Positions 21,743-27,562 of a stretch of DNA of 46,882 nucleotides are shown one piece after another (within the stretch, counting starts at the first letter, position 1; the number at the start of each line of letters is the position of its first letter). Below the pieces are notes generated by a model. That model was not told the DNA's origin. It saw only the letters and a program-made list of their open reading frames with translations, and did no database searches. The DNA is from Lachnospiraceae bacterium (lineage in GTDB: Bacteria; Bacillota; Clostridia; Lachnospirales; Lachnospiraceae), in contig JAFXTJ010000121.1 in the NCBI GenBank assembly GCA_017535945.1, positions 1-46,882 on the forward strand, written 5' to 3'. The translations under genes and the position numbers were made by a program.

Positions 21743-22699
21743 ATGAATGAGATGCGTCACCTGATGACACCGATGGACTTCAGTGTCGATGAATTGGAGC
21801 GGCTGTTTGACAAGGCCGCCGACATCGAAGCCCATCTGCAGGATTATGCCCACGCCTGTGACGGCAGGATCCTGGCGACCTGTTTCTACGAGCCCAGCAC
21901 GCGCACACGCCTCTCTTTTGAGACCGCGATGATCCGGCTGGGCGGCCGGGTGATCGGCTTCGCGGATGCCTCGTCGAGCTCGGCGAGCAAGGGTGAGAGC
22001 GTCGCCGATACGATCCGCGTCATCTCCTGCTTCGCCGACATCTGCGCCATGCGCCATCCCAAGGAAGGCGCGGCCATGGTCGCCGCGGCCAGATCGACGA
22101 TCCCGGTCATCAACGCGGGGGACGGCGGCCATGAGCATCCGACGCAGACCCTGACGGATCTGCTGACGATCCGCTCCCTCCATGGCAGGCTCGGGGATTT
22201 CACGATCGGGCTCTGCGGGGATCTGAAGTTCGGCCGCACCGTCCACTCCCTGATCCACGCTCTGGTCCGCTACAAAGGCATCCGTTTCAAATTCATCTCT
22301 CCCCCCGAATTAAAGGTTCCCGATTATATCATAGAAATGCTCAAGGCGGAAAACATCCCGTTTGAGGAAGTGATCCGTCTGGATGACTGCCTGCCGGATC
22401 TCGATCTGCTCTACATGACGTGAGTCCAGCGGGAACGCTTCTTCAACGAAGAGGACTATGTACGGCTCAAGGATTTCTATATCCTGGATAAGGAGAAGCT
22501 CGCGAGAGCCAAATCCACCATGCGCGTTCTGCATCCCCTGCCGCGTGTCAACGAGATCGCGGTCGATGTGGATGATGATGAGCGGGCCGCCTATTTCGCG
22601 CAGGTCCAGTACGGCCTGTATGTGCGCATGGCGCTGATCCTGACGCTGCTCGATCTGACAGATGATCACATGAACCACGGACTGCTCAAGTGGCAGTAA
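21743..22699 (+). pseudogene. pyrB: Aspartate carbamoyltransferase catalytic subunit, interrupted by an in-frame TGA
   Basis: Read through the stop, the frame gives 318 residues, normal for PyrB. The first part (226 codons) has the carbamoyl phosphate loop [18 protein letters not shown] and [10 protein letters not shown]. Codon 227 is TGA (22421-22423); the frame then continues without any further stop as [12 protein letters not shown] and [15 protein letters not shown], both strongly conserved, and ends in TAA. The family motif here is YMTRVQ, so the TGA replaces the Arg that is Arg229 in E. coli, which binds aspartate. One change (CGA to TGA) would explain it. The downstream part shows no decay, so this is a very recent mutation, a sequence error, or readthrough. 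If real and not read through, the enzyme is inactive. AUG is preceded by GGAGGAAGGAAA. Confidence 0.9.
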
Positions 22700-22717: not shown

Positions 22718-23161
22718 ATGCTTAATGTAGGCAAGATCGAAGAGGGCTTTGTGCTGGATCACATCCAGGCGGGAAAGAGTCTCTCCATCTATCATCAGCT
22801 GGGACTGGACAAGCTCGACAACACCGTCGCCATCATCAAGAACGCACGGAGCGGCAAGTCCGGCAAGAAGGACATCCTGAAGGTCGAGGTCGATATCGAC
22901 ACGCTCAACCTCGACGTGCTGGCCTTCATCGACCACAATATCACGGTGAACGTCATCAAGAACGGCGAGATCATCGAAAAGCGCCGTCTGGTCCTGCCCC
23001 GCGAGATCCGTAACATCATCCACTGCCACAATCCGCGCTGCATCACCTCGATCGAACAGGGCCTGCCCCATATCTTCTATCTGGCGGACGAGGAAAAGGA
23101 GATCTACCGCTGCCGTTACTGTGATGAGCGGTACCGCAAGCGCGACGGCGACGAGCTGTGA
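22718..23161 (+). CDS. pyrI: Aspartate carbamoyltransferase regulatory subunit
   Basis: 147 residues. The N-terminal allosteric domain (about 1-95) begins MLNVGKIEEGFVLDHI. The C-terminal zinc domain has CHNPRC and CRYC, four Cys that hold the zinc and make contact with the catalytic chain. In enteric bacteria the subunit binds CTP/UTP and ATP to regulate pyrimidine synthesis. It starts 18 bp after pyrB behind AAAGGAGACGAT and is intact, so the regulatory gene is kept although pyrB is interrupted. Transcription ends at the hairpin 23195-23220. Confidence 0.96.
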   Translation: MLNVGKIEEGFVLDHIQAGKSLSIYHQLGLDKLDNTVAIIKNARSGKSGKKDILKVEVDIDTLNLDVLAFIDHNITVNVIKNGEIIEKRRLVLPREIRNIIHCHNPRCITSIEQGLPHIFYLADEEKEIYRCRYCDERYRKRDGDEL

Positions 23162-24090: not shown

Positions 24091-25800
24091 TTAATTTCTG
24101 TCCTTGATCCGGTAACGGATATGCTGTTCCCTCTTATTCTCAAACATCCGCTCATCCGCCAGCAGGTAGACCGCATGTGCGTTCCCGCCGTGGCATTCAT
24201 GCCGGAAGGCGTAGCCGATGGCCGCGCTGCGGAAGATCGTCTTGTCTTTGGCGTTCATCTCATCCAGATCGCTGTAGAGACGGCGCAGGCGCACACCGAA
24301 GCCGTCCGCGTTGGTGCGTTTCATCACCACGAGGAATTCGTCACCGCCCATCCGCGCGCATAACTCCTCGTCACCGAAATTGGCCTTGAGCGCCGTCGCG
24401 TAGTCCCTGAGCAGCTGGTCTCCCGCCGCGTGTCCGAGCCTGTCGTTGGTATCCTTGAGCCCGTTGACGTCCACGCTGACCAGGCAGTAATCCTCGCGGC
24501 TGCGGTCCAGATCCTCGAACACCTTATCCGCACGGGCCCTGTTGGCGAGGCCTGTCAGGGCATCCGCATAGGCGATGTTCTGCAGGGAGGCGTAATCCTT
24601 CTGCCGCGAGCCCGATTCGGAGATAAAGGAGAGGTAATTGACCACCTGGGAGCAGGCAAAGAGCATGGCTCCCAGCGGGAGCAGGTTGTGTCCCGTCTCG
24701 CGGTCCACATACGGCAGTCCCATCCGCCAGGCAAAGATGACGATCATGCTGACGGTGAGACAGACGATCACGGCCGCCAGTCCCATCATCGTCACGCGGC
24801 TCGCCGCGGGGTTGGTCTTCACCGTCAGGTTACGGATCAGATCCGGCATCTGGATCGCCACGCCCACCGCGGCCAGGAGATAGTAAGGGAACAGGGCGCG
24901 GTTCATATGCGCGATCCCGGTCACATGCAGCAGCACGACCACAATGAAGAACGCGGTCGTGAGCGGAAGCAGCTGCCGGTAGATCTTATCCGGAATGATA
25001 TGCTCCGTGTTCAGCGAGTTGTTCAGGATGATGCTTAACGGCAGCAGAGAATAGATCGACAGATAGTTGATGGTCGCGCCGACATCGGCGTTCATGACCA
25101 GGAAGGCCGCGTGGTCGTTGGTGATGAGCAGGATCCCCAGTACGGCGCACAGGATGCTGCCGTGCAGCTGCGGCTTCAGTTCCGGTACATTGCCCAGATA
25201 GATGAGGGTCAGGAATACAAAGCTCATGCCGAAGATCACCAGGAAAAAGCCGCATCCCAGGGAGAAGAAATTCCACCGGACGAGCATCGCCTCCAGATCT
25301 TCATGGGCACCGATATAGGGCGCGCTCATGACCCGGCCCGCGTGGGATTCCGTCCGGTAGAGCGTGATGCTCACATACTCTCCCGCGTAATCCTCGGGCA
25401 GAGACACGAGATGATAAGTGGATCCCACAAACCGCCTGTTGTGGTACCGGTCCATGGCAAAGCGGTCCACCACAACGCCGTTCACGCTGACTTCATAGGC
25501 CGCGTACCGGGTCTCAAACATGAGTGTGGGAAAAGGGATATCCCCCATGTCGGGCAGTTCCAGGGAGACCTGCAGATAATCCCCCCGCTTGGTAACGGGC
25601 AGCGTGGTGACATTGACCGAATCGTCCTCCAGCGGCATACTGTCTCCGCCGGCATCCGTCAGTTCTCCCCTGAGACGCCAGCCGTCCGACAGGATCCGAT
25701 AAGGGTAATGCGTCACATCCCCGATGATCCCCAGGATGATCGTCAGGAGTGCGATAAAGATCGCCACACACGAGGCACCGATCAGGATATTCCTACGCAT
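24091..25800 (-). CDS. Membrane diguanylate cyclase (GGDEF) with extracellular sensor, second of a pair
   Basis: 569 residues. An N-terminal membrane helix (about 5-27) leads to an extracellular beta-rich domain of some 150 residues, then seven or so membrane helices (about 180-395) and a C-terminal GGDEF domain with the active-site motif MGGDEF. The plan resembles 7TMR-DISM receptors. The position of the RxxD inhibitory site reads GDEE, so product inhibition by c-di-GMP is probably missing. GGDEF enzymes join two GTP into c-di-GMP. The ATG at 25800 is preceded by GGGGGAGG, and it overlaps the end of the upstream GGDEF gene by 8 bp, so the two are coupled. The ligand is not known. Confidence 0.9.
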   Translation of the reverse strand: MRRNILIGASCVAIFIALLTIILGIIGDVTHYPYRILSDGWRLRGELTDAGGDSMPLEDDSVNVTTLPVTKRGDYLQVSLELPDMGDIPFPTLMFETRYAAYEVSVNGVVVDRFAMDRYHNRRFVGSTYHLVSLPEDYAGEYVSITLYRTESHAGRVMSAPYIGAHEDLEAMLVRWNFFSLGCGFFLVIFGMSFVFLTLIYLGNVPELKPQLHGSILCAVLGILLITNDHAAFLVMNADVGATINYLSIYSLLPLSIILNNSLNTEHIIPDKIYRQLLPLTTAFFIVVVLLHVTGIAHMNRALFPYYLLAAVGVAIQMPDLIRNLTVKTNPAASRVTMMGLAAVIVCLTVSMIVIFAWRMGLPYVDRETGHNLLPLGAMLFACSQVVNYLSFISESGSRQKDYASLQNIAYADALTGLANRARADKVFEDLDRSREDYCLVSVDVNGLKDTNDRLGHAAGDQLLRDYATALKANFGDEELCARMGGDEFLVVMKRTNADGFGVRLRRLYSDLDEMNAKDKTIFRSAAIGYAFRHECHGGNAHAVYLLADERMFENKREQHIRYRIKDRN

Positions 25801-27562
25801 TGGCACCTCCCCCGGACTCCGCAGCCATGGCGGAGGGCGTGATGATCCCCCGCTGTCTGTGGTGTTCGTCCTTCATCGCATACATCCGCTCATCCGCCAG
25901 CATGTATACCGCCTGCACATTCTCCCCCTCCGAGCTGTCGGCGATGCCGTAGGAGAACGCATAACGGAAGGTCCCGCCGCGGCGGTTCGCCTCCTCCGTC
26001 CCCTGGATGAGGCTGCGCACATCGCTCTCCATCGCCTCCCGGCCGGTATCTTTGCGGATGACGATAAATTCATCTCCGCCCATCCGTCCGACCAGTTCGC
26101 AGTCCGAGAAGGCATCCTTCATCAGTTCCCCGAAGCCGGAGATCATCATGTCCCCGATGCTGTGTCCCTGTTTGTCGTTGACGATCTTGAGGCCGTCCAG
26201 ATCGATGCTGACGACCGCGTAGCGCGACATGACATCCGCGTCGAGTCCCGTCATGAACTGATCGCAGCTGGCCCGGTTGTCAAGTCCGGTCAGAGAATCC
26301 CGGAAGGCCATCCCGTACAGTTTCACCTTGGTCCGCGCCTCGGTCAGATGGTCGATGGAATGGAAGAAATAATTGAGCATGATCGAGAGAACGATGGCCA
26401 GAGCGCCCACCGTAATGAAATCGATCCCCGCGCTGTCATCCGTCTTGAACACATAGGCCATCAGATAGTACCGCAGGATCTCCAGGAAAATGGAGCAGAT
26501 GAAGAGCATGATCCCGACCAGCAGCACTCTCTCCGAACTCATCCCCACATAATTGCGTCTGGAGCTGCGGGCCTCCCGGTCGCAGCGGATGAGCACATAG
26601 ATCAGATAGATCCCCTCCGTCAGGATCATGGCATGGAAGATCGGCAGCATATGATTGATCATCAGGATCCTCGTGGCATGGAGTACGACCGCAAGCGTGG
26701 CCATTGACAGATCGAACACCAGCAGGATGCGCAGTACGCGCACTCTGGCACCCGCGGATCCGCTCGTGAGGATGTAGAGGATCATGATGGACGGGATAAA
26801 GTACAATGCCATGTACTCGAGCACATGGGAGATCACATCATTATGGATGATATAGGCGATGACCTCGTTGTAGCACAGGATATAGACTCCCAGAAAATGC
26901 GAGATCATGGCGCTGAAGAGGACCGATTTATCCTTGGCGGCGCCGATGATCAGGAAAGGGGAGAGCACAAGCAGCACAGCGCCGAAATAGAACATGAATA
27001 TCCCGATCAGCAGCGCAAGCCTGCGGGTCTGGAGATAATGCCGCATCAGATCCTCGGTATTGCCCAGCGTAACAGGATAAGCCGATGAGAACGCGTCATC
27101 GTCCGCCGCCGTCAGTTCGATCCGGAGGAAGTGGCCTCCGCAGGAGGAAGACAGCGGGACATAATGGACACTCTTCGGCACGAAATGCCCTTCCGGGATA
27201 TCGTAGCCGTAGCTGTAGACCAGAGAGCCGTTCTCAAAGACGCGGACCCGCGCCATCCTGCTCTTAAAGGTGACGCTGGGCGCATAGATGTCGATATCCT
27301 CCGGCAGAACGGTTTCCAGGGTCACCTTCTCCCCCGCCACGATACCGTCCGACTCAAAGCGCTCCAGTTTGGAATTGATATAATTCCGTCCCCGGTAATT
27401 GATCTTCCAGTTCCCGTCGATGACACGGCTCTCGTAGTTCTGCGGCGCATTAAAGATACTGCTGCCCATTCCCAGGATACCGGCCGGGATCAGCAGGGCG
27501 ATGAGGAAATACAGCAACACCCTCACATTAATGCTGTTTTTATTATCCGCAGTATCTGCCAT
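25793..27562 (-). CDS. Membrane diguanylate cyclase (GGDEF) with extracellular sensor, first of a pair
   Basis: 589 residues with the same plan as its downstream neighbour: membrane helix (about 13-33), extracellular beta-rich domain (about 40-185, with SSSCGGHFLRIELTAADDDAF), a bundle of membrane helices (about 190-400), then a GGDEF domain with RMGGDEFIVIRKD. The inhibitory RxxD site is absent (SDCE at its place). Sequence identity to the neighbour seems low outside the GGDEF domain, although the plan is shared; an old duplication with divergence of the sensor is likely. It starts 14 bp after the GH43 gene, with a poor ribosome site, and is therefore in the xylosidase operon. Confidence 0.9.
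   Translation of the reverse strand: MADTADNKNSINVRVLLYFLIALLIPAGILGMGSSIFNAPQNYESRVIDGNWKINYRGRNYINSKLERFESDGIVAGEKVTLETVLPEDIDIYAPSVTFKSRMARVRVFENGSLVYSYGYDIPEGHFVPKSVHYVPLSSSCGGHFLRIELTAADDDAFSSAYPVTLGNTEDLMRHYLQTRRLALLIGIFMFYFGAVLLVLSPFLIIGAAKDKSVLFSAMISHFLGVYILCYNEVIAYIIHNDVISHVLEYMALYFIPSIMILYILTSGSAGARVRVLRILLVFDLSMATLAVVLHATRILMINHMLPIFHAMILTEGIYLIYVLIRCDREARSSRRNYVGMSSERVLLVGIMLFICSIFLEILRYYLMAYVFKTDDSAGIDFITVGALAIVLSIMLNYFFHSIDHLTEARTKVKLYGMAFRDSLTGLDNRASCDQFMTGLDADVMSRYAVVSIDLDGLKIVNDKQGHSIGDMMISGFGELMKDAFSDCELVGRMGGDEFIVIRKDTGREAMESDVRSLIQGTEEANRRGGTFRYAFSYGIADSSEGENVQAVYMLADERMYAMKDEHHRQRGIITPSAMAAESGGGANA

Follow-up and report, generated by a model that had tools for sequence, protein, structure and literature searches.

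An in-frame TGA at the Arg229 column of pyrB in a Lachnospiraceae draft genome is probably a consensus error

Here we examined a window, by which we mean the whole analysed stretch of 46,882 nucleotides, from a Lachnospiraceae draft genome (G000), in which pyrB, the gene for the catalytic chain of aspartate carbamoyltransferase (ATCase; 21743..22699, plus strand), is interrupted at codon 227 by an in-frame TGA (22421..22423, plus strand). Comparison of the sequences leads us to regard this TGA as probably a consensus error of sequencing or assembly (probability of about 0.66), in which case the organism would carry a normal pyrB with arginine at codon 227. Assembly error had been one of the options left by the original prediction, and we favour it because the draft has further lesions in the threonyl-tRNA synthetase gene thrS and in two more conserved genes; an organism whose only thrS was disrupted could hardly live, and we therefore hold a consensus error to be the likeliest explanation. 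A single technical fault shared by the draft as a whole would explain all four. The assembly consists of 2,649,334 bases in 144 contigs, is 81.9% complete and is probably of the metagenome type.

The reading frame of pyrB starts at an ATG at position 21743, with which the TGA of codon 227 is in frame, and is otherwise open over 318 codons, 91 of them past the TGA, to a TAA at 22697-22699. Both pieces match the family model TIGR00670 (profile positions 1-224 and 226-303): the first piece alone scores 254.8 bits against a cut-off of 236.95, which places it in the PyrB family, and the second continues the model with 71.8 bits. Alignment to the E. coli chains puts the stop at chain position 229 (position counted by eye) within the motif LYMT-R-VQKER, so that the window has TGA where E. 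coli PyrB has Arg229, the residue that we take to bind aspartate. The interruption of an otherwise intact frame of 318 residues and its identity with the E. coli Arg229 site, both claimed in the original prediction, are thus borne out, as is the claim of an intact regulatory chain: pyrI (22718..23161, plus strand, with TGA as its terminator) scores above the cut-off of NF002063. Among the window genes having syntenic homologues, pyrB was by inspection the only one with a stop in the sense frame. The window also encodes a neighbouring pair of GGDEF (diguanylate cyclase) proteins that are alike in length (24094-27562, minus strand).

Related genomes were then compared at this codon, as the original prediction had proposed. 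Arginine occupies the codon-227 column in all 109 related loci (29 from 79 genus genomes and 80 from a named collection, some being the same record twice), encoded by AGA in 56, CGT in 25, CGC in 12, AGG in 8, CGG in 5 and CGA in 3, and neither TGA nor cysteine was found in this column in any of the 109; the pyrB matches include 94 distinct 140-residue cores. A stop lies inside the match in six of these loci, each time at query residue 307 or 309, which is the end of shorter genes. All 79 genus genomes, this draft included, give some match to the pyrB query, which is weak and ornithine carbamoyltransferase (OTCase)-like only in five of them (G042, G054, G057, G075 and G077). Among the 74 genomes with a strong match an in-frame TGA in pyrB appears in this draft only. 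A TAA is listed in four of the 74, in matches ending at residue 307 or 308, and we read these as the genes' own terminators because six of the fetched loci stop at residue 307 or 309. The pattern of the pyrB flanks found no match in viral contigs. The proposal that a single C to T change produced the stop holds only if the ancestral codon was CGA, and the loci closest in identity have CGC, CGT, AGA or AGG. The same alignment bears on the idea that the 226-residue truncated chain is itself a working or regulatory form, for which the open upstream frame speaks and nothing further. Such a chain would stop short of the Arg229 column and lose 91 residues at its C-terminal end, it is absent from the fetched relatives and codon conservation is the same on either side of the stop, all of which makes this idea exceedingly improbable.

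Examination of the rest of pyrB upheld the claim that the gene shows no decay, codon 227 being its only departure among the 183 columns with at least 97% conservation. Four further residues are private to the window, all of them at variable columns. The dN/dS values against four of the five nearest relatives (those with finite dS) ranged between 0.056 and 0.084, although these dS values are rough because synonymous sites are near saturation, and pN was similar before and after the stop. By these measures the rest of pyrB is under ordinary purifying selection. Across the window region (19 genes, 6,651 columns) the pyrB stop was the only stop at a column where three relatives agree, and no internal stops were found in carB (two copies), pyrC, pyrD or pyrF of the draft. 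Because pyrB is otherwise conserved and these four other families of the pathway are open, its loss is either very recent or not real. A real and very recent nonsense allele, in a population that lacks ATCase, lives on salvaged pyrimidines and has a gene that has not yet decayed, would likewise leave the rest of the gene conserved. The sequence as given does read TGA, a gut habitat could supply uracil, and a search for an intact second pyrB, which the original prediction had suggested, found none in the assembly (81.9% complete). A paralogue considered for that role is 34% identical and probably OTCase-like, and was rejected. Weighing against the allele are the open carB, pyrC, pyrD and pyrF and the absence of an in-frame TGA from pyrB in the 73 genus mates, besides this draft, whose pyrB match is strong. 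A literature search for pyrimidine auxotrophs in Butyrivibrio returned no papers. The fresh auxotroph of the original prediction thus keeps the support of an otherwise conserved gene, and we consider it a tentative second choice, less likely than an assembly error. A real stop here would add another case to the strain-level losses of biosynthetic genes, and as such would be ordinary.

The strongest argument for a consensus error comes from thrS (G000:C96:8682-10565), which carries an in-frame TGA at codon 206 (L171 9948-9950, minus strand) in a column that is tryptophan, always encoded by TGG, in 29 of 29 fetched orthologues. Only one threonyl-tRNA synthetase was found in the assembly, a second match being weaker than the matches listed, and in those listed thrS is free of stops in every genus mate with an identity of at least 70%. 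A broken sole threonyl-tRNA synthetase would be lethal, and the argument for a real nonsense allele in pyrB hardly extends to the one found here. Two observations temper this view. Besides the stop, thrS departs at four of 432 near-invariant columns, as against none to five in relatives and 12 in one of them; the departures lie within the range of the relatives, so errors are not crowded in this gene, which we counted against a consensus error. In addition, ten of the 79 genomes have a listed paralogue with 45-49% identity over the C-terminal part, and a second threonyl-tRNA synthetase could therefore sit in the missing part of the draft. The paralogue matches in two of these genomes (G006 and G033) list a TGA.

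The two other broken genes emerged from a search for lesions in 70 stretches of the draft (1,163,378 bases), onto which 201 genes of a sister genome (G059) were mapped at 55% identity or more, giving 66,573 aligned residues. Three of the 201 genes had in-frame stops judged to be real, namely the TGAs of pyrB and thrS and a TAG (L182 5687-5689, minus strand, G000:C114) in a short conserved and seemingly membrane-anchored protein, whose sister gene reads on and whose piece past the TAG has no Pfam match. One gene in 205 had a one-base frameshift judged to be real relative to the sister genome, a DUF5717 gene (L190, position about 1103, plus strand, G000:C99). The reverse comparison, of this draft's genes on the sister genome, gave, in our judgement, no genuine stop among 199 genes and no genuine frameshift among 202. 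The two genomes do not differ significantly, either for all lesions (4/205 vs 0/202; Fisher P = 0.12) or for stops alone (3/201 vs 0/199; P = 0.25), and both counts include pyrB, which had prompted the search. Upon inspection we dropped six of the nine stops from the gene mapping in the draft (leaders, poor alignment or wrong frames), seven in the sister (the same causes or gene ends) and, as upstream extensions, two of the three frameshift-like matches. The stretches of the draft (window included) have a G+C content of 58% and the sister's one of 57%, which is high for Butyrivibrio, the type of uncultured gut bacterium to which the draft probably belongs.

Scans for interrupted genes were also performed. 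One based on codon usage was abandoned, its 591 candidates being mostly antisense frames in the part shown. With stricter criteria, another scan returned 91 candidates from the same 1,163,378 bases, 28 of them with no nearby start and ribosome site, and by inspection we read most of the 91 as ordinary gene junctions. Those that we took as interrupted were pyrB, thrS, the short gene at L182 and, as a candidate, a WYL-type regulator, in which a TAG (L151 15006-15008, minus strand, G000:C24) falls within the N-terminal portion of a WYL/WCX-domain protein with both sides open. A surface protein is perhaps another interrupted gene, having a TAA (L186 6155-6157, plus strand, G000:C138) that separates a start resembling a signal peptide from an open frame of 2533 codons with an FG-GAP match; it is among the 91 and outside the 28. 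In the sister genome (732,853 bases) the same scan yielded 40 candidates, of which the filter left 15, and in G055 and G056 combined (126,743 bases) it yielded seven, of which one was left; we read these as probable junctions. Also counting against a consensus error, none of 67 ABC_tran matches in the draft contained a stop, though fewer than one was expected, and C>T/G>A changes were not in excess in the window region (19 genes; rate ratio of 0.93, vs 0.94 to 1.17 in three relatives), the latter in a damage-type test that is insensitive at the implied error rates of about 0.00045 to 0.00095 per base, rates which assume that the three stops in 66,573 codons are all errors.

Whether the pyrB TGA is instead read through, either to a small extent or in a programmed way, so that some full-length PyrB is made, was considered for near-cognate tryptophan tRNA, suppressor tRNA, selenocysteine insertion and codon reassignment. 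In favour of this view, the stop is TGA in both interrupted housekeeping genes, and in thrS it lies at a tryptophan column, where near-cognate tryptophan would give a normal protein. Against it, TGA ends 500 of the 889 coding ORFs of at least 100 amino acids in the stretches of the draft (351 of 574 in the sister) and is the commonest terminator there, whereas reassignment would have it rare, release factor 2 is intact, and the third gene, at L182, is broken by a TAG. Neither tRNA-Sec (150 of 315 candidates scored) nor SelB was found above its cut-off in the draft (81.9% complete), and none of its 32 tRNA matches, all with the anticodon read, has the anticodon UCA (reading covered 60 loci and then 19 of 30 tRNA-match loci, the other 11 being at places already covered). 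The 60 nucleotides starting at the TGA fold no better than shuffled sequences (z = -0.72). A selenocysteine gene was therefore rejected, there being no SelB in this incomplete draft and no tRNA-Sec among the candidates scored over the cut-off, and no structured element after the TGA, and so was reassignment, TGA being common as a terminator and a UCA-reading tRNA not having been found among the 32 matches. Moreover, the pyrB site needs arginine and the thrS site tryptophan, and hence no single recoding serves both. Readthrough with arginine or tryptophan, which the original prediction had offered as an option, accordingly found no support, and we consider it very unlikely. Less likely still is a lineage that tolerates TGA in a few housekeeping genes such as pyrB and thrS by means of leaky termination and near-cognate insertion; were this true, the synthesis of pyrimidines and of threonyl-tRNA would be limited by readthrough.

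Preferring a consensus error as we do, we note that a lone stop in a conserved housekeeping gene of a draft does not by itself amount to auxotrophy or recoding, and that further conserved genes of that assembly need checking before such a reading is adopted. With selenocysteine genes and genes of TGA-reassigned genomes the window pyrB shares an in-frame TGA between conserved flanks, but here no selenocysteine machinery was found above the cut-off, TGA is the commonest terminator and the 109 related loci all have arginine. It resembles bacterial PyrB (TIGR00670; E. coli 1d09) in its match to the whole model, in the adjoining pyrI and in the near-invariant residues kept, and differs in having TGA in the Arg229 column. 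Cooley and Wright (2024, PMC11017572) describe how low coverage or quality produces spurious internal stops, which mark poor assemblies, and take an elevated count of internal stops and frameshifts to indicate that the consensus is poor. They compare near-identical genomes and reassembled reads, whereas here we have one draft of the species and its consensus alone; common to both are conserved genes of a draft assembly that contain frameshifts or internal stops.
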